IMG/VR virus record: IMGVR_UViG_3300035523_000062
Location: 1 to 43,700 of that record
Reading direction: 5' to 3' (one strand)
Length of the DNA stretch: 43,700 nt
Source: a virus
Under the pieces are notes generated by a model. That model saw nothing but the letters and a program-made list of their open reading frames with translations. It ran no database searches and was not told the origin of the DNA. Position numbers and translations under genes: made by a program. This document shows positions 27,059 to 41,273 of the stretch, piece by piece (position 1 is the stretch's first letter; each line of letters starts with the position of its first letter).

Positions 27059-27916
27059 TCACCCCAGCCCCACCACCAGCCGCAGCAGCCGTATGGCGTC
27101 CTTCACCGTCACCTTGCCGTCCCCGTCTAGGTCCCCCGCGACGGGTGCGGGCGGCGGAGGTGGCGCCGGGAGGGTGTACTCCCACAGGGCGACGCAGTCC
27201 AGGCCCATTCGATTCTCGAACATCTCAGGCTGGAATACGAGGACGCGCCGGGGGTTGTTGGGGTCCGTGGAGAGTTGAGCCGTAGGGGCGAAGGCTGGGC
27301 CAGCCAGCCCCTTCTGCCGCAGCTGCCAACTGATGCCTCCGTCATCGCTGAACTCCGGCACCACCGTCCATGGGCTGGGGGTCCATCCCCAGTCGTATGC
27401 TTGGCGTAGCCTCCATACCTCAGTGCCTGACAACCACGCACCCTTGCGGGTCGTGCGGGTCGGTGTCTGCCACCGTGGCTCTGTCAGCGCCCAGGTGGCT
27501 CCCCCGTCATGGCTGGTAGCGGTTTGGCCTCCCTCTGCCACTGTGCGGAACTGCACACTGTCGCGGTCGCTTGGGTCTACCACCCCTTCCATCGACACGA
27601 GGACGCACCCCACACCCACGGGCAGATCGGCGGGTCGTTTCAGGGCGCTGGCGTCCATCGTTGGCCCCTGGAACTGCCGCCAAGACACTCCAAAGTCATC
27701 CGAACGCAGCAGTCCATAGCCAGGCTCGTTGATGCCTGCCTTGTTCGGGCCAAAGCTGGTGAGCACGTACAGCCGCGTGGGCTTACCTCCTACCGCCAGC
27801 ACGCCCTCGTTGTCCTGCATGGAGGCCAGCAGGCAGGTCCACTCCCCTTCGCCGGCCCACGCGGCCCCGACACTCACCAGCGCCAGCAACCCCCACACCA
27901 CCACCCGCTTGCCCAT
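27059..27916 (-). CDS. secreted Asp-box (BNR) protein with dockerin-like C-terminus
   Basis: 285 residues from ATG at 27916 (GAGGAGG 6 bases upstream). Signal peptide MGKRVVVWGLLALVSVGAAW with cleavage at AWA-G. Three Asp-box motifs (SDDFGVSW near 75, SHDGGATW near 137, SDDGGISW near 192) indicate a small beta-propeller of the sialidase/BNR type, though no catalytic Arg triad can be confirmed. The end is Pro-rich (LPAPPPPPAP) then GDLDGDGKVTVKDAIRLLRL, a single dockerin-like calcium loop and helix of the form common at the ends of secreted proteins in Armatimonadota and Planctomycetota. In a prophage it looks like cargo taken from a host genome. Confidence 0.7.
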   Translation of the reverse strand: MGKRVVVWGLLALVSVGAAWAGEGEWTCLLASMQDNEGVLAVGGKPTRLYVLTSFGPNKAGINEPGYGLLRSDDFGVSWRQFQGPTMDASALKRPADLPVGVGCVLVSMEGVVDPSDRDSVQFRTVAEGGQTATSHDGGATWALTEPRWQTPTRTTRKGAWLSGTEVWRLRQAYDWGWTPSPWTVVPEFSDDGGISWQLRQKGLAGPAFAPTAQLSTDPNNPRRVLVFQPEMFENRMGLDCVALWEYTLPAPPPPPAPVAGDLDGDGKVTVKDAIRLLRLVVGLG

Positions 27917-27993
27917 AGTGAGCCTCCTCACGGGCGCCATTCTGCATCCGTTCGCCATCTCCTCTACACTATCCGGCGATCTCACGGTCCTGT

Positions 27994-28009
27994 ACTTGTG
28001 AGAACAAGT
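27994..28009. promoter_or_regulatory. inverted repeat ACTTGT-N4-ACAAGT, possible operator
   Basis: Perfect 6-base arms about 80 bases upstream of the BNR gene and at the edge of the gene-free region. Its size and place suit a repressor site for the minus-strand accessory operon. Confidence 0.4.
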
Positions 28010-28055
28010 GTTTGGTGTGGCTGGCGCGCGAAAACCACAGAGGTAACAAGGGGTG

Positions 28056-28262
28056 GAAGGTGGAATCACTCCTTGGCAGTGGCCGACCGGCAAGCGACCG
28101 CTGCTCAGATACCGCGCACCTTTGGGCCTCTGGCCCAGGGGGCCTCTGTCGCTGGGTGACCAGCCGGGCCGCGCGCGGACCCGTCTTGCCGGAGCAGGAC
28201 CCCCTGGGCTAGGGGCCTGCTGTTGTTATAGACCGCCGGACAAAACGCCTTCAGCAGCAGGG
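28056..28262 (+). ncRNA. candidate structured RNA
   Basis: A 19-pair uninterrupted stem joins 28124-28142 to 28200-28218. Three of its pairs are G.U when read on the plus strand and would be A.C mismatches on the minus strand, so the fold fits a plus-strand transcript. Inside lies GCTGG-GTGA-CCAGC, a stem capped by a GNRA tetraloop (28151-28164), and a GC-rich hairpin at 28166-28182. Upstream, 28075-28082 pairs with 28098-28105, again with G.U pairs; downstream, 28216-28222 could pair with 28255-28261 (competing with the long stem's last pairs). No known RNA family is recognised. Ends are approximate and no promoter was identified. Confidence 0.45.
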
Positions 28263-28582
28263 GAGGAGTTGGTAGCGGGGGCTCAGAAGAGGACAAGCAA
28301 GAGCTACACCCTCCCCCACCACGGGGAGAGCCAGGGGACGGAGCGGCAAACTCACATCCCCCGGCATACGCGCGGAGACCCAACCAGGGACGGCCATCCC
28401 TAGAGAGGCGTCGGTGCGATGGGCACCTTACTCCAGAGACCTATTCGGCGTCACCCCTCGTTTTCCTCACGTCCCGTAAGTGCCACAAGCAGGCAGCCCC
28501 ACCCGTTTCTCCGCCGGACCTCTCTCGGCGCTCGTTCCAACCCCACCAGCTAGGCCCCACCGCGCCTGTCGTGAGCGTGAAC

Positions 28583-28693
28583 TCCCACAGTTTTGAGTGT
28601 CGGAGTACACGTCACCCCGGTACGCTATCCTGCGGGAGTGTGTTTCACGACAAGCGAGCGCACGGACTCCGGTTGACACTCAAAACTGTGGGA
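28583..28693. repeat. 19-bp inverted repeat pair spaced 73 bp
   Basis: TCCCACAGTTTTGAGTGTC at 28583-28601 and its exact complement at 28675-28693; five more pairs (GGAGT/ACTCC) continue inward after a small offset. A second dyad overlaps the first arm: TGTCGTGA (28567-28574) with TCACGACA (28645-28652), and ACTCCC (28581-28586) with GGGAGT (28634-28639). The two folds exclude each other. The site may be a looping operator pair or an RNA switch ahead of the early promoter. Confidence 0.65.
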
Positions 28694-28722
28694 ATCGGAT
28701 CCAGAAACACCCCAGAAACCGC

Positions 28723-28752
28723 TTGACGCACATTCCACGCATATGGTATATA
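28723..28752 (+). promoter_or_regulatory. sigma70-like early promoter
   Basis: TTGACG at 28723-28728, 18-base spacer, TATATA at 28747-28752, in an unusually AT-rich patch. It points to the early genes starting at 28,899. An imperfect dyad just downstream (GGGTGC-N5-GCACCC within 28759-28783) could be an operator or leader hairpin. Confidence 0.6.
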
Positions 28753-28898
28753 TGGGGTGTAGGGTGCATCGGGCACCCACTACACATGAGCCACGGGGAG
28801 GGACACCGGCTCTGTTCCTCCCCGCGCAACGGGAGCCAGCCATGGTTGTAGCAACACCAGCCCCCAGGTCTAGTGTTCAACGTGACCGAGGGTCAATC

Positions 28899-29123
28899 AT
28901 GCCAAAGCCTCAACGGCGTGCCACTGGCTCAGAGAACCGGAAGCGCTACTCCATGCCCATTTCCAACGGCTACAAGACCGTCGCCGCCATGATCGCCAAG
29001 CTCTACGAGGTGGACGAGGGCGACGTTTACGAGCAAGCCGCGAAGGACTGGGTAGACGCTGAGGCTGCGAAGTTTGGGCTGACGCACCTGCTGCCCAAGG
29101 CTGAGGAGCCGCAAGAGGGGTAA
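28899..29123 (+). CDS. small basic protein at the head of the early region
   Basis: 74 residues from ATG at 28899 (GAGGG upstream). An in-frame ATG at 28842 with GGAG upstream would add 19 residues. MPKPQRRATGSENRKRYSMP is basic; the rest (YKTVAAMIAKLYEVDEGDVY, EQAAKDWVDAEAAKFGLTHL) is helical and could be a small DNA-binding (ribbon-helix-helix-like) regulator. First gene after the promoter at 28723-28752. Not recognised with certainty. Confidence 0.6.
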   Translation: MPKPQRRATGSENRKRYSMPISNGYKTVAAMIAKLYEVDEGDVYEQAAKDWVDAEAAKFGLTHLLPKAEEPQEG

Positions 29124-30458: not shown

Positions 30459-30482
30459 GTCTGTTTGCTATTCCGAACAGAC
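30459..30482. promoter_or_regulatory. 24-bp near-perfect dyad upstream of the HTH regulator
   Basis: GTCTGTTTG, 6 bases, CGAACAGAC: nine-base half sites with one mismatch. It lies about 42 bases upstream of the regulator start at 30,525 and is a good candidate for an autoregulatory operator. It does not fit the CTGT-N8-ACAG LexA pattern because the spacing is 12. Confidence 0.5.
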
Positions 30483-30524
30483 AGGGCAGGCCCGATGGAT
30501 GAAAGCTTTGAGGAGGTGGATCCC

Positions 30525-30818
30525 ATGTACCGACTGCTCGTAGAGCGCGGATGGCTGAGGGTGTTGTCCATGCAGGCCGTGGCGCTCTGGAACCACCTGG
30601 CGCAGCTTAGGCGCGCGGAAGCCGAAGCCGGCTACCCCATGCGAGAGCTGGCGCTAGAGTTCGGCGTCGGGCACGTCACCCTCTACGAGCGCCTCCGAGA
30701 GCTGGAGGACAACGGCCTAGTCACGGTCGAGCGCCACGGACGCCGGCACCCACTCCAGATCACCCTCGTGACCAACATTCCCGTGGCGCCGCTTGAGCGC
30801 GTCACTCGGGAGGCTTAG
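30525..30818 (+). CDS. winged-helix DNA-binding regulator
   Basis: 97 residues from ATG at 30525, which has AGGAGG 8 bases upstream; ATG at 30495 is a weaker alternative. MQAVALWNHLAQLRRAEAE, then YPMRELALEFGVGHVTLYER, LRELEDNGLVTVERHGRRHP forms a winged helix with a clear recognition helix and beta wing. It sits between the first small-gene operon and the recombination genes and directly follows an operator-like dyad, so it probably regulates early genes. Confidence 0.7.
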   Translation: MYRLLVERGWLRVLSMQAVALWNHLAQLRRAEAEAGYPMRELALEFGVGHVTLYERLRELEDNGLVTVERHGRRHPLQITLVTNIPVAPLERVTREA

Positions 30819-31435: not shown

Positions 31436-31638
31436 TGGGGACCTTTCTGCTGGAGGAAGTGCTGCCCCTGGTCGGGGTGGTGGTTGTGCTGAAGACCCTG
31501 GAGCTGCGGTTCCGGCCTCGCGTGCCGAGCCTGAAGACCTGGGACCCGAAGGCGCTGGACCGACTGGCGCGAGACGTGATGTACAGCGAGGCCGAGGAGC
31601 TGGTTGAGCGCGCCTTCGCGGAGGAGGAGATACGCTGA
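31435..31638 (+). CDS. small protein with N-terminal membrane segment
   Basis: 67 residues from ATG at 31435 (GAGGAGGGA 5 bases upstream). Hydrophobic start MGTFLLEEVLPLVGVVVVL then LARDVMYSEAEELVERAFA, acidic. TGATG overlap on both sides. Not recognised. Confidence 0.55.
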   Translation: MGTFLLEEVLPLVGVVVVLKTLELRFRPRVPSLKTWDPKALDRLARDVMYSEAEELVERAFAEEEIR

Positions 31639-32660
31639 TGGGAACCGCTGCTGAGCTGGTCGCTACCAGCTACGCCCCCGTGGTGCGTCAGGTGCCTCGG
31701 GAAGACTATGAGCTCATCCACGCGACGGTCGCCAAGGGTTCCACGGACGCGGAGTTCCGGCTGTTGGTCCACATGGCCAACAACTACGGACTGGACCCGC
31801 TGCTGAAAGAGATCTGGTGCGTCAAGCGCAACCAGAACGACCCGGCCCTCATCATGTGCAGCCGGGACGGCTACCTGAAGGTCGCCCAGGACCATCCCGA
31901 CTACGAGGGCCTGCTGTCCTTCGTGGTGCGGGAGGGCGATGAGTTCTCGATCGACGCCTCAGAGTACAGCATCACCCACCGGATGGGCGCCAAGCGCGGC
32001 GCCATCCTGGGAGCCTGGGCCCGCTGTGACCGTCGCGGCCGGCGCCCCCAGATCTGCTTCGTGGACTTCGAGGAGTACAAGGGCAACAGCCCCGTCTGGA
32101 GCAAGTACCCCTCCGCCATGATTCAGAAGGTCGCGGAGGTGTTCGTCCTCAAGCGCCAGTTCACCATCAACGGACTGGTGACCAAGGAGGAGCTGGACGC
32201 GGGCGAGGTCCCCAGCCCGCCCGTCATCGACGCCCAGTACAGCATCGCCGCCCCGGAGCCGTCCCCCAAGATGGCCTGCGAGACCTGCGGCGCCGAGTTG
32301 ACCCAGGGCCAGGCCAACTACAGCCAGACGGCCTACCACAAGAGCCTATGCCCCAAGCATCAGAAGTCAGCCGCGGCGGCTCAGGTGAAGACCGCAGGCA
32401 GGGCCGCCGAGGCCCCCGCCCCCGAACCCGTCGTCAGCTCCTCCGACCCTTCAGCGCGCATCACCGCCTCCACCCTGGCCACTCTGACCAAGAAGGTCGA
32501 TGCCTGGAAGGCACTGGGCGCTGACGACGTGGCGGTGGCCTCCCTGATGAGCAAGTACGGCTCCGCCACTCCTGAGCACCTCACCGAGCTCCGCGCCCTG
32601 GACCTGATCGACGCCCTGCAGGCCCAGATCGACAACCCAGACCCCTTCGTTAACGAGTAG
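31638..32660 (+). CDS. RecT-type single-strand annealing protein
   Basis: 340 residues. DAEFRLLVHMANNYGLDPLL, KEIWCVKRNQNDPALIMCSR, DGYLKVAQDHPDYEG and KYPSAMIQKVAEVFVLKRQF form the conserved core of the RecT/Bet group (about 30-185). The C-terminus adds a CETCGAEL...LCPKH zinc-like motif (near 213-235) and a helical tail, so it is longer than classic RecT. It pairs single strands in phage recombination. No RecE/exonuclease is next to it; the VRR-NUC protein at 38.5 kb is the only visible nuclease. Confidence 0.85.
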   Translation: MGTAAELVATSYAPVVRQVPREDYELIHATVAKGSTDAEFRLLVHMANNYGLDPLLKEIWCVKRNQNDPALIMCSRDGYLKVAQDHPDYEGLLSFVVREGDEFSIDASEYSITHRMGAKRGAILGAWARCDRRGRRPQICFVDFEEYKGNSPVWSKYPSAMIQKVAEVFVLKRQFTINGLVTKEELDAGEVPSPPVIDAQYSIAAPEPSPKMACETCGAELTQGQANYSQTAYHKSLCPKHQKSAAAAQVKTAGRAAEAPAPEPVVSSSDPSARITASTLATLTKKVDAWKALGADDVAVASLMSKYGSATPEHLTELRALDLIDALQAQIDNPDPFVNE

Positions 32661-32664
32661 GCCC

Positions 32665-33687
32665 ATGCACGACACGACCCCTGGGGCCCCTCTGAGGGAC
32701 CTCAAAAACGCGGAGATGAGGGTGACCCTGGCGCTTCAACGCCGGGGCCCCCTCACTGCCCTGGAGATCTGCGAGGAGTCCGGCATGACGCGCAACACGG
32801 TAAGTGTTGGGGTGGCCTTCGGCATGGGGCGCGGAACCATCGTCGAAGGTCGCCGAGGACGCTTTCGCGAGTACCAGCTAGCTGAGAATCTCACATTCTC
32901 AGATTCTGAGAATCTCACATTCTCAGATTCTGAGAATCTCACATTCTCAGATTCTGAGAATCTCACATTCTCAGATTCTGAGAATCTCACATTCTCAGAA
33001 TCTGAGCAGTTGGAGGCATCCGCAGAGGCCCCAACTTCTCAGAATGTGAGAAGTTCAGACCCGGAAGAGTCCTCCAGGTGCTCAGATTCTGAGAAGTTCA
33101 GCCCCGAAGAGCCCTCCAACTTCTCAGAATGTGAGAATGTGAGAAGTTCCGTCGTGGGGGGTAGGGGGGTTAAAGACTCTCTTACACCCAGAACCAAGGA
33201 GAGAAAGACTAGACCCCAACCCGGAGGGGGTGCAGGGGGAACCGTACCCGCCGTCGCCAAGCCCGCCCGCGCCACACCCTCGACCTCCGAGCGGTTCGAG
33301 CAGTTCTGGGCGGCCTACCCCCGCAGCATGCGCAAGGGCGACCGACTCACGGCCTGGAGGAGGTGGCAGCGCCTCGCCAAGCACCCCGAGAACCCCCTGT
33401 CTCCCGACACCTCGGCCCAGGACTTCCAGGACCTGATGGACGGCCTGGAGCGCTGGAAGAACTCGCAGTTCTGGGCGAACGACGGCGGCCAGTACATCCA
33501 CATGCCCGCCACCTGGCTCAACAAGTGCCTCTGGACCGAGCATCCCCTTCCGGTACGGGTAACCCAGAGCATCCCCGTGGGCCCACGGTCGCAGGCCCCC
33601 GCTCCCGCCCTCACCCAGGCCGACCGCGACCACGAGGAGTTCATGGCGCGGGCCCGCCGTAACCAGGAGGCCTACGATGGCGACTGA
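32665..33687 (+). CDS. phage replication initiator (lambda O-like) containing iterons
   Basis: 340 residues. N-terminal winged-helix part (ALQRRGPLTALEICEESGMT, RNTVSVGVAFGMGRGTIV), a low-complexity Ser/Glu/Asn-rich middle produced by the iteron array (ENLTFSDS five times, residues about 74-113), and a C-terminal domain of phage replication proteins (SERFEQFWAAYPRSMRKGDR, LTAWRRWQRLAKHPENP, QYIHMPATWLNKCLW). The next gene is a DnaC-like loader and overlaps this one by 11 bases, as with lambda O and P. It should bind the iterons in its own gene and open the origin. Confidence 0.8.
   Translation: MHDTTPGAPLRDLKNAEMRVTLALQRRGPLTALEICEESGMTRNTVSVGVAFGMGRGTIVEGRRGRFREYQLAENLTFSDSENLTFSDSENLTFSDSENLTFSDSENLTFSESEQLEASAEAPTSQNVRSSDPEESSRCSDSEKFSPEEPSNFSECENVRSSVVGGRGVKDSLTPRTKERKTRPQPGGGAGGTVPAVAKPARATPSTSERFEQFWAAYPRSMRKGDRLTAWRRWQRLAKHPENPLSPDTSAQDFQDLMDGLERWKNSQFWANDGGQYIHMPATWLNKCLWTEHPLPVRVTQSIPVGPRSQAPAPALTQADRDHEEFMARARRNQEAYDGD
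32884..33003 (+). repeat. iteron array, probable replication origin
   Basis: Five 24-base units with period 24 (32884, 32908, 32932, 32956, 32980); four identical, the fifth differs by one base. Each contains the dyad TGAGAAT-CTCAC-ATTCTCA, and each junction forms TTCTCAG-ATT-CTGAGAA. Related sites follow in the same gene: AACTTCTCA/TGAGAAGTT dyads at 33033-33055 and 33118-33148 and CTCAG-ATT-CTGAG at 33081-33093. The segment is AT-rich in a GC-rich genome and lies in the initiator gene, as the lambda ori does in O. Confidence 0.8.
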
Positions 33688-35275: not shown

Positions 35276-36558
35276 CGGCTACCTACCAGATCCTCGAGGG
35301 CGACGTGCGCGAGCAGCTGGCTACCCTGCCGGCGGAGTCGGTCCACTGCTGCGTGACCAGCGTCCCCTATTGGGGCCTTCGGGCGTACAACACAGAGCCG
35401 CAGGTGTGGGCGGACGGTTGGCGCGGAGAGCTCGGCCAGGAGCCGACGCCGGACCTGTACGTGGCGCACATGGTCGAGGTATTCCAGGCCGTGCGGCGCG
35501 TGCTGCGGAAGGACGGCACCCTCTGGCTCAACTGCGGGGACTCCTACGCCACTGGTGCCGGCCGCGTGGGCGAGTGCCCAGGCGGAGGAGAGCAGGGAGA
35601 GCGTTGGGCCGGCTACAGAGGCACCCGCGACGGTAGCCCCAAGCACACGGCGGGCATCGGCCCCATGATTCAGCCTAACAGGATGCCCTTGCCTGGCCTC
35701 AAGCCGAAAGACCTCCTGCTGATGCCCGCGCGCCTCGCCCTAGCGTTGCAGGCGGACGGGTGGTGGCTGCGCTCTGACATCATCTGGCAGAAGCCGACCT
35801 GTATGCCGGGTAGCCAGACGGATCGTCCGACCAGCAGCCACGAGCACATCTTCCTGCTGGCGAAGGCAGAGCGATACTTCTACGACCGCTGGGCCATCGC
35901 GGAGCCATCGGCAGGCGGGAACCACGGAACGGCGGCCAGCTTCAGGCGCACCGCCTCTGCCCGTGGACAGGTGCTCCAACCCGGTAACACCGCCACTCAT
36001 AGGCCGGACCGCGAAGAGGTCTGCTATGACGGGCCTACACGCAACGCCCGCGACGTGTGGAGCATCCGCTCCGAGGCGTCCCCCTTTGAGCACTACGCCG
36101 CCTTCCCTCCGGAGCTGCCCCGACGCTGCATCCTAGCGGGTACGAGCCAGGCCGGCGTATGCCCTGAGTGCGGGGCACCGTGGGCGCGAGTGGAGGGGAA
36201 CCGCGAGGGTGTGCGCCCGCCGAAGCGGACCCGGCACCCCGAGGGACAGCACCCCTTTGACGACTACCACGGGCGGACGCCTACGGTCCGGCATCTGACC
36301 GGAGCATGGGCTCCTACCTGCACCTGTGACGCCGGCTCTCCGGTCCCCGCTACCGTGCTCGATCCCTTCTCGGGGACCGGCACCACTGCTGCGGAGGCGC
36401 TGCTGCTGGGCCGCAACGGAACCGGGATCGAGCTGTCGCCGGAGTATGCCGAGATGAGCCGGACGCGCTGTCAGGCGGCCGCCAACGGGCGGGTGCTGAA
36501 GCGGCGGAGGACGGAGGAGATCGAAGGTCAGCTATCCCTCGAGGAGGTGAACCTATGA
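35272..36558 (+). CDS. orphan DNA methyltransferase (beta class)
   Basis: 428 residues from GTG at 35272, overlapping the previous stop (GTGA). Catalytic motif IV TSVPYWGLR at 29-37 (a variant of TSPPYW) precedes the SAM-binding motif DPFSGTGTT near 364, the beta order typical of N4-cytosine and N6-adenine methylases of the site-specific type. Near 297 lies CPECGAPW with later TCTCDAG, a likely zinc insert. No restriction enzyme gene is next to it, so it is a phage orphan methylase that may protect phage DNA or mark host DNA. Substrate base and target are unknown. Confidence 0.85.
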   Translation: MTATYQILEGDVREQLATLPAESVHCCVTSVPYWGLRAYNTEPQVWADGWRGELGQEPTPDLYVAHMVEVFQAVRRVLRKDGTLWLNCGDSYATGAGRVGECPGGGEQGERWAGYRGTRDGSPKHTAGIGPMIQPNRMPLPGLKPKDLLLMPARLALALQADGWWLRSDIIWQKPTCMPGSQTDRPTSSHEHIFLLAKAERYFYDRWAIAEPSAGGNHGTAASFRRTASARGQVLQPGNTATHRPDREEVCYDGPTRNARDVWSIRSEASPFEHYAAFPPELPRRCILAGTSQAGVCPECGAPWARVEGNREGVRPPKRTRHPEGQHPFDDYHGRTPTVRHLTGAWAPTCTCDAGSPVPATVLDPFSGTGTTAAEALLLGRNGTGIELSPEYAEMSRTRCQAAANGRVLKRRRTEEIEGQLSLEEVNL

Positions 36559-37526
36559 GCCGCGTCCTCATCCACCCCGAGCGCCTGCGGGAACTCTTCG
36601 ACGCCGGCATGCCCTACCGCGACATCGCCCAGGAGCTAGGAGTGCGGGAGCAGTCCGTGAAGGCGCGCCTCGGACGGATGGGCTTGCACCGCCAGCCCCG
36701 GCACTGGACGCCCGCCGAGGAGCAGCAGCTCCGCAACTTGGCGGGCCTCTACCCGCCGACCGAGATCGCCCTGCACCTGGAGCGCGGAGCGACGGCCATC
36801 AGGGTTCGGATGGCGCGCCTGGGCATCAGCACCAAGCCCCGGCAGCCGCAGGCCCTGACGGTGCCGGTCATCGCCCGAGCCCTCGGGGTGGACGCCTCGA
36901 CCGTCAAGGGCTGGGTGCGGGAGGGCCTGCTGCGGTGCCGACCCTGGGAGGGGCGCGGAGGCTACGTGCCGGGAGTGCTCATCTACCCGGAGCCCCTGCG
37001 AGAGTTCCTAACCCAGCACCCGGAGCGCCTCGACCTGGCGAAGGTCCCGGCCGGCCCCTATCGGCTGCTGCTAGAGCGCGTCTGGACGCCAGAGGCGAGG
37101 GCCGAATACTGGTCTGCCGCCCACCGGACCGAAGGACACGGGCTCTGGACGACTCCACTGCTGGCCTCGGCGCTGGGAGCAGACCCGGTTTCGGTGCTGG
37201 CAGGCATCCGGTCCGGACGCTTCCCGGCCCGCCGCGAGGGCTCCGGCGGCTATGTGATGCGCCCGCAGGACGTGCTGCCCGCCAGCGCCCTCATCCCCAC
37301 CTGGCACGACGCCTCTTCCTGCCCTCCGCTCTGCCTCACCTGCCGGCGTGCCATGCTGGTGGCGCCCGAGGGGGTGCTGCGGATCGGCCACGAGTTCCGG
37401 CGCCCCATCGAGACCGGCCACCGGCGCCGCTGGCACCAGCGAGACTACACCTGGCGCGCCCAGCGCCAACTGACGCAGTGCGACCCCTGCCACCAGGAGG
37501 GCCGCAGGCTGGAGATGCCGAGATGA
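36555..37526 (+). CDS. multi-HTH DNA-binding protein
   Basis: 323 residues. At least three helix-turn-helix units: MPYRDIAQELGVREQSVKAR (18-37), LYPPTEIALHLERGATAIRV (about 70-90), and VPVIARALGVDASTVKGWVR (about 103-125), plus a fourth-like TTPLLASALGADPVSVLAGI. The C-terminus has CLTCRRAML and QCDPCHQEG cysteine pairs, perhaps zinc-binding. ATGA overlap with the methylase. Probably a transcription factor for early or late genes; repeated HTH and zinc make a regulator more likely than an enzyme. Confidence 0.65.
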   Translation: MSRVLIHPERLRELFDAGMPYRDIAQELGVREQSVKARLGRMGLHRQPRHWTPAEEQQLRNLAGLYPPTEIALHLERGATAIRVRMARLGISTKPRQPQALTVPVIARALGVDASTVKGWVREGLLRCRPWEGRGGYVPGVLIYPEPLREFLTQHPERLDLAKVPAGPYRLLLERVWTPEARAEYWSAAHRTEGHGLWTTPLLASALGADPVSVLAGIRSGRFPARREGSGGYVMRPQDVLPASALIPTWHDASSCPPLCLTCRRAMLVAPEGVLRIGHEFRRPIETGHRRRWHQRDYTWRAQRQLTQCDPCHQEGRRLEMPR

Positions 37527-37744
37527 GAGACCATACCTGGCCGCGCCCGGGGACCCACTGCCACCGGCTGCTGGCCGTCCTGAAGGCGAGCCCCGGCGAC
37601 TGGTGCGCCAACCTCTACCAGCGCCTGGGCGTGATGGTCCACAGCCGAGTGGCGGACCTGCGGAGCCACGGCTATCGCGTGGAGAGCCGCTGCGCCGGCC
37701 GTGGGCGCTACGAGTATCGGATCGTGACGGAGGAGCCGCGATGA
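37523..37744 (+). CDS. small winged-helix protein
   Basis: 73 residues from ATG at 37523 (ATGA overlap). CHRLLAVLKASPGDWCANLY, QRLGVMVHSRVADLRSHGYR, then VESRCAGRGRYEYRIV has the helix-helix-wing form of the small phage HTH proteins that open with a 'HsRvadLRk.G' phrase. Likely DNA-binding regulator. Confidence 0.7.
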   Translation: MRDHTWPRPGTHCHRLLAVLKASPGDWCANLYQRLGVMVHSRVADLRSHGYRVESRCAGRGRYEYRIVTEEPR

Positions 37745-37986
37745 ACCGCCCACAGAAGGACCCCGAGGCGGTCGCCTACGGGAGGCGCCTCAAGAGACTG
37801 CGGGTCATCGCCCGACTGACCCGCCCGCAGCTCGCCAAGATCAGCCTGGCCTCGGAGGATAGCATCAAGCACTACGAGTCCGGGCTCCGGATGCCCTCCT
37901 CTGAGTACCGCGCCAACCTGGAGCGTGTGCTGGCCGAGCGAGTCGGCCCCTGCGCCCACTGTCCGCTGAGGGAGGGGACGGCATGA
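37741..37986 (+). CDS. XRE-family helix-turn-helix protein
   Basis: 81 residues from ATG at 37741 (ATGA overlap with the previous gene). RRLKRLRVIARLTRPQLAKI, SLASEDSIKHYESGLRMPSS is a Cro/CI-type HTH, with CAHC at the end. It lacks the C-terminal dimer/protease domain of CI-type repressors, so it is more Cro-like. The only XRE-type protein in the window. Confidence 0.75.
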   Translation: MNRPQKDPEAVAYGRRLKRLRVIARLTRPQLAKISLASEDSIKHYESGLRMPSSEYRANLERVLAERVGPCAHCPLREGTA

Positions 37987-39331: not shown

Positions 39332-39534
39332 GCAATGCCCCGGTGCTGGCCATGGGGATTGAGGACGCGGCACGGTCCGTGGGGCTGAGCTACCAGACGC
39401 TCCGGAAGGCGGTGGAGCGGCAGGAGCTGCCGGTGGTCAAGGAGGGGCGGCGGGTGCTGGTAACGGTCGCTAGTCTGAGGCGCTGGCTGGAGAGCAAAGA
39501 GGAGACCTGGCGATGCAGCCCCACCGGAATGTAG
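39328..39534 (+). CDS. excisionase-like HTH protein
   Basis: 68 residues from GTG at 39328 (AAGGAGG upstream; GTGA overlap). MGIEDAARSVGLSYQTLRKA, VERQELPVVKEGRRVLVTVA, SLRRWLESKEE is the HTH_17/excisionase-type fold of Xis and related adaptors. It is the last phage gene on this side, about 100 bases from the end of groEL, which is where directionality factors often lie next to attR. No integrase is present in the window to pair with it, so an ordinary regulator remains possible. Confidence 0.65.
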   Translation: MSNAPVLAMGIEDAARSVGLSYQTLRKAVERQELPVVKEGRRVLVTVASLRRWLESKEETWRCSPTGM

Positions 39535-39552
39535 CTGTAGGTGTAGCTGTAG
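39530..39552 (+). repeat. short direct repeat TGTAGCTGTAG
   Basis: TGTAGCTGTAG at 39530-39540 and 39542-39552, one base apart, at the stop of the excisionase-like gene. It could be binding sites for a directionality factor near the prophage end, but is too short to be sure. Confidence 0.35.
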
Positions 39553-39579
39553 CGGGAGCGCCCCCGGTGGTTTTGGGGG

Positions 39580-39623
39580 CCTCTCGGAGGTCCCATGAGC
39601 GTGAAATCGGGACCTCCGAGAGG
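39580..39623. terminator. 15-bp perfect inverted repeat between prophage and groEL
   Basis: CCTCTCGGAGGTCCC at 39580-39594 and its exact complement at 39609-39623, with a 14-base loop. A smaller stem (GCCCCC/GGGGGC, 39560-39580) lies beside it. No clear U-run follows on either strand. It lies 10 bases after the groEL stop and about 45 after the last phage gene, so it may be a two-way transcription end or part of the attachment site. Confidence 0.5.
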
Positions 39624-39632
39624 GGGTTAACG

Positions 39633-41273
<1,641 letters not shown>

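Follow-up and report, generated by a model that had tools for sequence, protein, structure and literature searches.

A palindrome-rich non-coding gap between divergent modules of a probable Armatimonadota prophage as a candidate control region

A 43.7-kb virus record, referred to below over its whole analyzed length of 43,700 nucleotides as the window, contains at positions 28056-28262 a stretch for which a new structured RNA had been predicted from the sequence. This original prediction described a 19-pair stem with three G.U pairs, an inner GNRA-capped hairpin and flanking stems within a gene-free 1-kb zone, and it assigned the RNA to the plus strand. The locus raises the question of what its folding represents: an RNA encoded by one strand, a piece of a larger non-coding region acting in cis, a former gene, or a duplication that folds by chance.

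The window contains two oppositely oriented gene blocks. The leftward block, which spans 515 to 27916, encodes tail, head, SPP1-type portal and terminase proteins together with some accessory genes. The rightward block, which begins at 28893, encodes a winged-helix protein, a Mu-Gam-like protein, RecT, a replication initiator with internal repeats, a DnaC-like loader, a DNA methylase and HTH proteins. The gene bordering the gap on the rightward side spans 28893-29123, and HTH proteins of the prophage are encoded at 30465-30818, 36555-37526 and 37603-37986. The rightward block is the early replication/recombination module, and the leftward block carries the late structural and accessory genes. 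At the right end of the record, a groEL gene (39633-41270, minus strand) has its nearest relatives in Armatimonadota genomes (about 75-79% over about 200 residues). This makes it very probable that the record is a prophage flanked on the right by host DNA; the host is an uncultured Armatimonadota bacterium. The left end of the prophage falls outside the record, and none of the genes examined in it was recognized as an integrase.

Several observations concern the modules themselves. The last gene before the gap, read leftward (27059-27916), encodes a BNR-repeat protein that is probably secreted and whose C-terminal module is dockerin-like. The dockerin-like part is mostly the sole portion of this protein with relatives in Armatimonadota genomes, and the gene is an unusual prophage cargo. 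The closest phage match of the RecT-like protein (31638-32660) is a protein of Methanobacterium virus PhiF3 (53% over half the length), which ranks well above the bacterial phage matches. Inside the replication-initiator-like gene (32665-33687), five 24-bp units (CTGAGAATCTCACATTCTCAGATT) occupy 32882-33006; the units are nearly identical (99% match), each of them is self-complementary, and no other part of the window comes close to them in structure. They are likely a replication origin within the initiator gene, an arrangement resembling that in phage lambda, whose origin of replication lies within the O gene. Just after 39332, inspection by eye suggests a small HTH frame resembling an excisionase, and a strong palindrome is found at 39580-39623, at the 3' end of the host groEL. 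The right end of the prophage is located in 39332-39630, with the attachment site probably close by.

The leftward and rightward modules are separated by a gap of 0.97 kb (Table 1). A crude gene call, in which counting ORF extensions trims the gap to 28094-28742, contains no larger gene-free stretch in the record and no other one between divergent genes. We trained a codon model on genes from the record itself and scored it in 150-nt steps: all six frames gave negative values at every step from 27900 to 28800 and stayed negative to about 28890, and positive values returned at 28893, where genes resume. The predicted gene-free 1-kb zone is borne out by these scores. The original prediction had also named a conserved protein in the stretch as a finding that would speak against it; no protein explains 28056-28262. 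In principle, the stretch might be a decayed protein gene, for example of a DNA methyltransferase, as 28210-28254 has a 47-nt match (81%) in an Armatimonadota genome, to a stretch that looks like a gene and that, from its sequence alone, we take to be methyltransferase-like. However, this match (E = 7.7e-4 in one of 291 genomes) is at about chance level, the similarity ends after about 15 codons, plasmid records contain nothing that matches the overlapping frame and the codon scores are negative throughout. We therefore rejected a decayed methyltransferase gene, and consider any origin of the stretch from a decayed protein gene highly improbable.

Table 1. Coordinates of features in and around the divergent gap
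Feature	Coordinates	Strand	Basis and remarks
Non-coding gap	27917..28892		Start codon of leftward block at 27916, rightward block from 28893; codon model, gene call
Upstream flanking stem region	28056..28123	+	Folds; rearranged when context is longer
Main stem, 5' arm	28124..28142	+	Pairs with 28200-28218; stem scan and folds
Inner hairpin GCTGG-GTGA-CCAGC, GNRA-type loop	28151..28164	+	Fold; pairing probability 0.97-0.99
Two more short hairpins filling the junction	28165..28199	+	Fold; the second is TCTTGC-CGGA-GCAGGA
Main stem, 3' arm	28200..28218	+	Followed by a loosely T-rich stretch, weakly terminator-like; stem scan and folds
Downstream flanking stem CTGCTG...CAGCAG	28219..28262 (stem about 28219-28258)	+	Fold
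Segment strongly structured on minus, not plus, strand	28268..28425	-	z = -3.1; 1 of 200 shuffles equally good
Perfect 19-bp inverted repeat TCCCACAGTTTTGAGTGTC, left arm	28583..28601	+	Stem scan
Inverted repeat, right arm	28675..28693	+	TTGACA hexamer at 28673-28678 overlaps the arm
Best plus-strand promoter-like site in gap, TTGACG-18-TATATA	28723..28752	+	Score 8.1; shuffle 95th percentile 8.6

Within the gap, the main stem consists of 19 uninterrupted pairs, three of them G.U (G28124.U28218, U28129.G28213 and G28132.U28210), and an outermost G.U pair, U28123.G28219, extends it to twenty. It closes a junction containing three hairpins, one of which is capped by GUGA. The stem was thus found as predicted, and the inner hairpin (GCUGG-GUGA-CCAGC) and the stems flanking the junction on both sides are likewise present in the minimum-energy fold. 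On the plus strand, which was folded in seven sequence contexts, the pairing probability of the main stem was 0.96-0.99 in six of them and 0.73 in the remaining one. Outside the 32.9-kb tandem repeat, only the inverted repeat at 28583-28693 scored higher as a stem. The main stem was matched in none of 481 local shuffles of the gap, and the energy of its 108-nt core (-69.8 or lower) was attained in one of these 481. The core, with z = -3.9 on the plus strand (-4.3 in a run with fewer shuffles), is the lowest plus-strand window outside the tandem repeat and the 3' end of groEL (39.5 kb). For the full 207-nt unit, 28056-28262, z was no lower than -2.1 and 6 of 200 shuffles folded equally well; across the record, 23 of 436 windows of this length were at least as extreme (pooled standard deviation). 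The folding potential of the main stem is probably non-random; we do not take it as strong, because the feature had been freely chosen when the prediction was made.

Some of these values are also what would be expected if the stretch had no function as a unit and were a GC-rich inverted duplication plus chance, given that very GC-rich, self-complementary DNA folds well by default. Stems scoring at least 18 arose at a rate of 0.05 per shuffled 43.7-kb window, on either strand (4 of 80 local shuffles), before allowing for the free choice of feature, and the rank of the 207-nt unit among windows of its size points the same way. Moreover, a diverged direct copy of the 5' arm comes immediately after it (GGGCCTCTGGCCCAGG / GGGCCTCTGTCGCTGG), as a local duplication would leave, and no sign of conservation was found. 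The near-complete failure of gap shuffles to reproduce the stem or the core energy argues against such an origin, as does the second, stronger inverted repeat in the same gap, and we regard an element with no function as a unit as less likely than not. Separately, the direct-repeat motif in the stem was considered as a repeated binding site and rejected, its copies being no more numerous than chance.

Excess structure is not confined to the main stem but occurs at several gap positions and on both strands. In scans with 108-nt windows, z was -4.3 at 28118 on the plus strand and -3.5 at 28318 on the minus strand. With 375-nt windows, z was -4.0 at 28531 (plus), -3.6 at 28281 (minus) and -3.3 at 28056 (minus); these three rank among the ten most extreme of 350 and lie wholly or mostly within the gap.

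Which strand would carry an RNA was a central point of the original prediction, which held that the stem forms only on the plus strand and that the bias in G.U pairs marks selection for RNA on that strand. Neither claim withstood closer analysis. The minus strand retains the stem, with 16 Watson-Crick pairs and two A.C mismatches, and the 108-nt core has a z of -3.2 on that strand. The G.U argument rests on two internal pairs plus one or two terminal ones; if G.T/A.C mismatches fall on one strand or the other at random, there is an even chance that the two internal ones agree, and the argument therefore carries little weight. Indeed, the bias reverses once the next 170 bases are included: over 28056-28430, the minus strand forms 20 G.U pairs vs eight on the plus strand, and folds with -190.2 kcal/mol (z = -3.4) vs -176.9 kcal/mol (z = -1.9). 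In the minus-strand minimum-energy fold of this segment, local hairpins replace the main stem. Across the whole gap, the corresponding values are -381.3 (z = -3.5) for the minus strand vs -347.0 (z = -2.8) for the plus strand. Taken together, the strand comparison leans slightly to the minus strand. More generally, a few G.U pairs in a single stem are too little evidence for calling a strand.

We also scanned the window for promoters, using a matrix with approximate sigma-70 weights. The best score in the window, 12.4, belongs to a minus-strand site upstream of groEL, which suggests that the matrix is able to find plausible promoters in this DNA. Upstream of 28056-28262, no convincing plus-strand promoter was found with this approximate matrix (best score 5.2 vs a shuffle mean of 5.4). 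The best plus-strand candidate in the gap (Table 1) is located downstream of 28056-28262 and points away from it, a placement suited to the rightward genes. Minus-strand matches in the gap are weak, the best one (5.96) being near the shuffle mean of 5.4. A terminator scan flagged the 3' arm of the main stem, where a short hairpin is trailed by loosely T-rich sequence; two such sites in 2.5 kb are close to the 1.0 expected by chance.

Relatives of the region were sought in several collections. Comparison with Rfam, which had been proposed along with the original prediction, yielded no family match at gathering thresholds in the whole window; at relaxed thresholds, only sub-threshold families appeared, mostly eukaryotic and fitting by chance. 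No DNA similarity to the region was detected in phage records or plasmid records. Viral contigs searched via the two gap-flanking genes and via RecT contained no relative, and those searched via the terminase contained relatives of up to 58% identity only. These terminase relatives, about 50-58% identical, have little of the early module in common. Among 291 genomes of the host phylum, searches with the DNA, with the protein encoded next to the gap on its rightward side and with a covariance model built from the single sequence yielded no relative preserving the region, although an empty answer from genome searches shows little when no known positive accompanies it. Across 47 sources, the covariance model matched only the window itself. 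One exact 17-mer of the core occurs in nine viral contigs and another in none. We rejected these contigs as relatives: five of the nine share a 14-bit model match (E = 0.28) that contains the chosen word, and this is a chance match. In related prophages of similar layout, the divergent gap is structured in two (L132 and L136) and not structured in a third (L133).

Against this background, the originally proposed free-standing structured non-coding RNA can be weighed. Such an RNA would be transcribed from the plus strand and composed of a domain at 28056-28123, a four-way junction at 28124-28218 and a domain at 28219-28262, with the main stem serving as its core or as part of a terminator. The rank of the 108-nt core among plus-strand windows, a main stem stably paired in most contexts, the GNRA loop, the compact junction, the weak terminator-like tail behind the stem and the lack of a protein reading all fit this proposal. 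However, plus-strand promoter scores upstream do not exceed background, neither an Rfam family nor, in the genomes and other sources searched, a relative by sequence or covariance model was found, and the wider segment 28056-28430 favors the minus strand, G.U pairs included. A plus-strand RNA of this kind is therefore improbable. What stands of the original prediction is a structured non-coding element, probably above chance in its folding and explained by neither a protein nor an Rfam family; its assignment to a plus-strand RNA does not.

The strongest feature of the gap is the perfect 19-bp inverted repeat, whose arms are 73 bp apart (Table 1). Stems of its level, scoring at least 20, were found in none of 80 whole-window shuffles. 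The repeat lies a short distance upstream of the best rightward promoter-like site. No further copy is present in the window, and no exact match was found in viral contigs. In the 291 phylum genomes, the repeat occurs as single copies with two mismatches in four genomes, compared with two genomes for a reversed control pattern. A recognizable mobile-element end was rejected on the basis of this absence from viral contigs and the isolated two-mismatch matches in the phylum. We consider 28583-28693 a candidate regulator site or a candidate small invertible or mobile element.

Based on these results, we suggest, with a probability of roughly 0.5, that the fold is a piece of a palindrome-rich non-coding control region that lies between the divergent prophage modules and acts in cis. 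This reading takes in the gap, the main stem, the 19-bp repeat and the above-chance folding on both strands, and an independent plus-strand RNA gene is not required. The putative role of the repeats would be to provide binding sites for regulators of divergent promoters, to fold in the 5' leader of the leftward transcript, or both; for the rightward promoter, the 19-bp repeat would be the candidate site of regulator binding. A leftward leader structured in this way might, for example, help RNA polymerase to read through the long late operon. Such a minus-strand leader is the specific mechanism we favor, given that this strand has the better fold over 28056-28430 and runs into the genes that start at 27916; as a particular mechanism it is nevertheless a tentative choice, with the odds against it. 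Against the control-region reading stand the weak minus-strand promoter matches, the failure to find a relative that preserves the region, and the varying structure of the gap in related prophages.

Still less probable is that the gap encodes a new class of structured phage RNA, in the form of either a leftward leader or a separate plus-strand RNA. The former would be a part of the leftward transcript, several hundred nucleotides long, that modifies RNA polymerase without a protein; the latter would be a separate RNA around the four-way junction closed by the 19-pair stem. To our knowledge, gene control in Armatimonadota phages is almost unexplored. Should the gap be a control region, it would mark the starts of the two main transcripts and the repeats to which a regulator might bind; a structured RNA, if shown, would extend the short list of phage RNAs known to act without a protein.

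With regard to known systems, the original prediction had invoked the large phage RNAs GOLLD and ROOL. These are covariation-supported families, with many GOLLD members exceeding 800 nt, and they are often, not obligatorily, located near tRNA genes (PMC12286853). The present stretch resembles them in being encoded by a phage or prophage and extensively base-paired (PMC12286853), but differs from them in having neither a family match nor a tRNA gene. No GOLLD or ROOL match was obtained in 27900-28900 at E values up to 10, and ARAGORN found no tRNA genes in the window, so that the comparison is unsupported.

A second comparison is with the HK022 put RNA, which mediates antitermination; put RNAs are about 70 nt long, form two stem-loops and lie downstream of early promoters that have been mapped (PMC9378689). 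As a structured cis RNA near the start of a phage operon, put illustrates a possible way for a leader to work, whereas at the present stretch no convincing promoter of this kind and no similarity to put were seen; the likeness is a functional speculation.

Finally, the gap can be compared with the divergent, immunity-like control regions of lambdoid phages. It differs from these in that no repressor gene was identified beside it, its putative operators are unmatched to a regulator and its 0.97 kb are unusually rich in structure. As to divergent promoters, there is one rightward candidate, within shuffle range, together with the 19-bp inverted repeat, and no good leftward candidate. The likeness to the lambdoid regions lies in the non-coding gap that separates oppositely oriented modules, in its inverted repeats and in a promoter-like site placed before the early genes.
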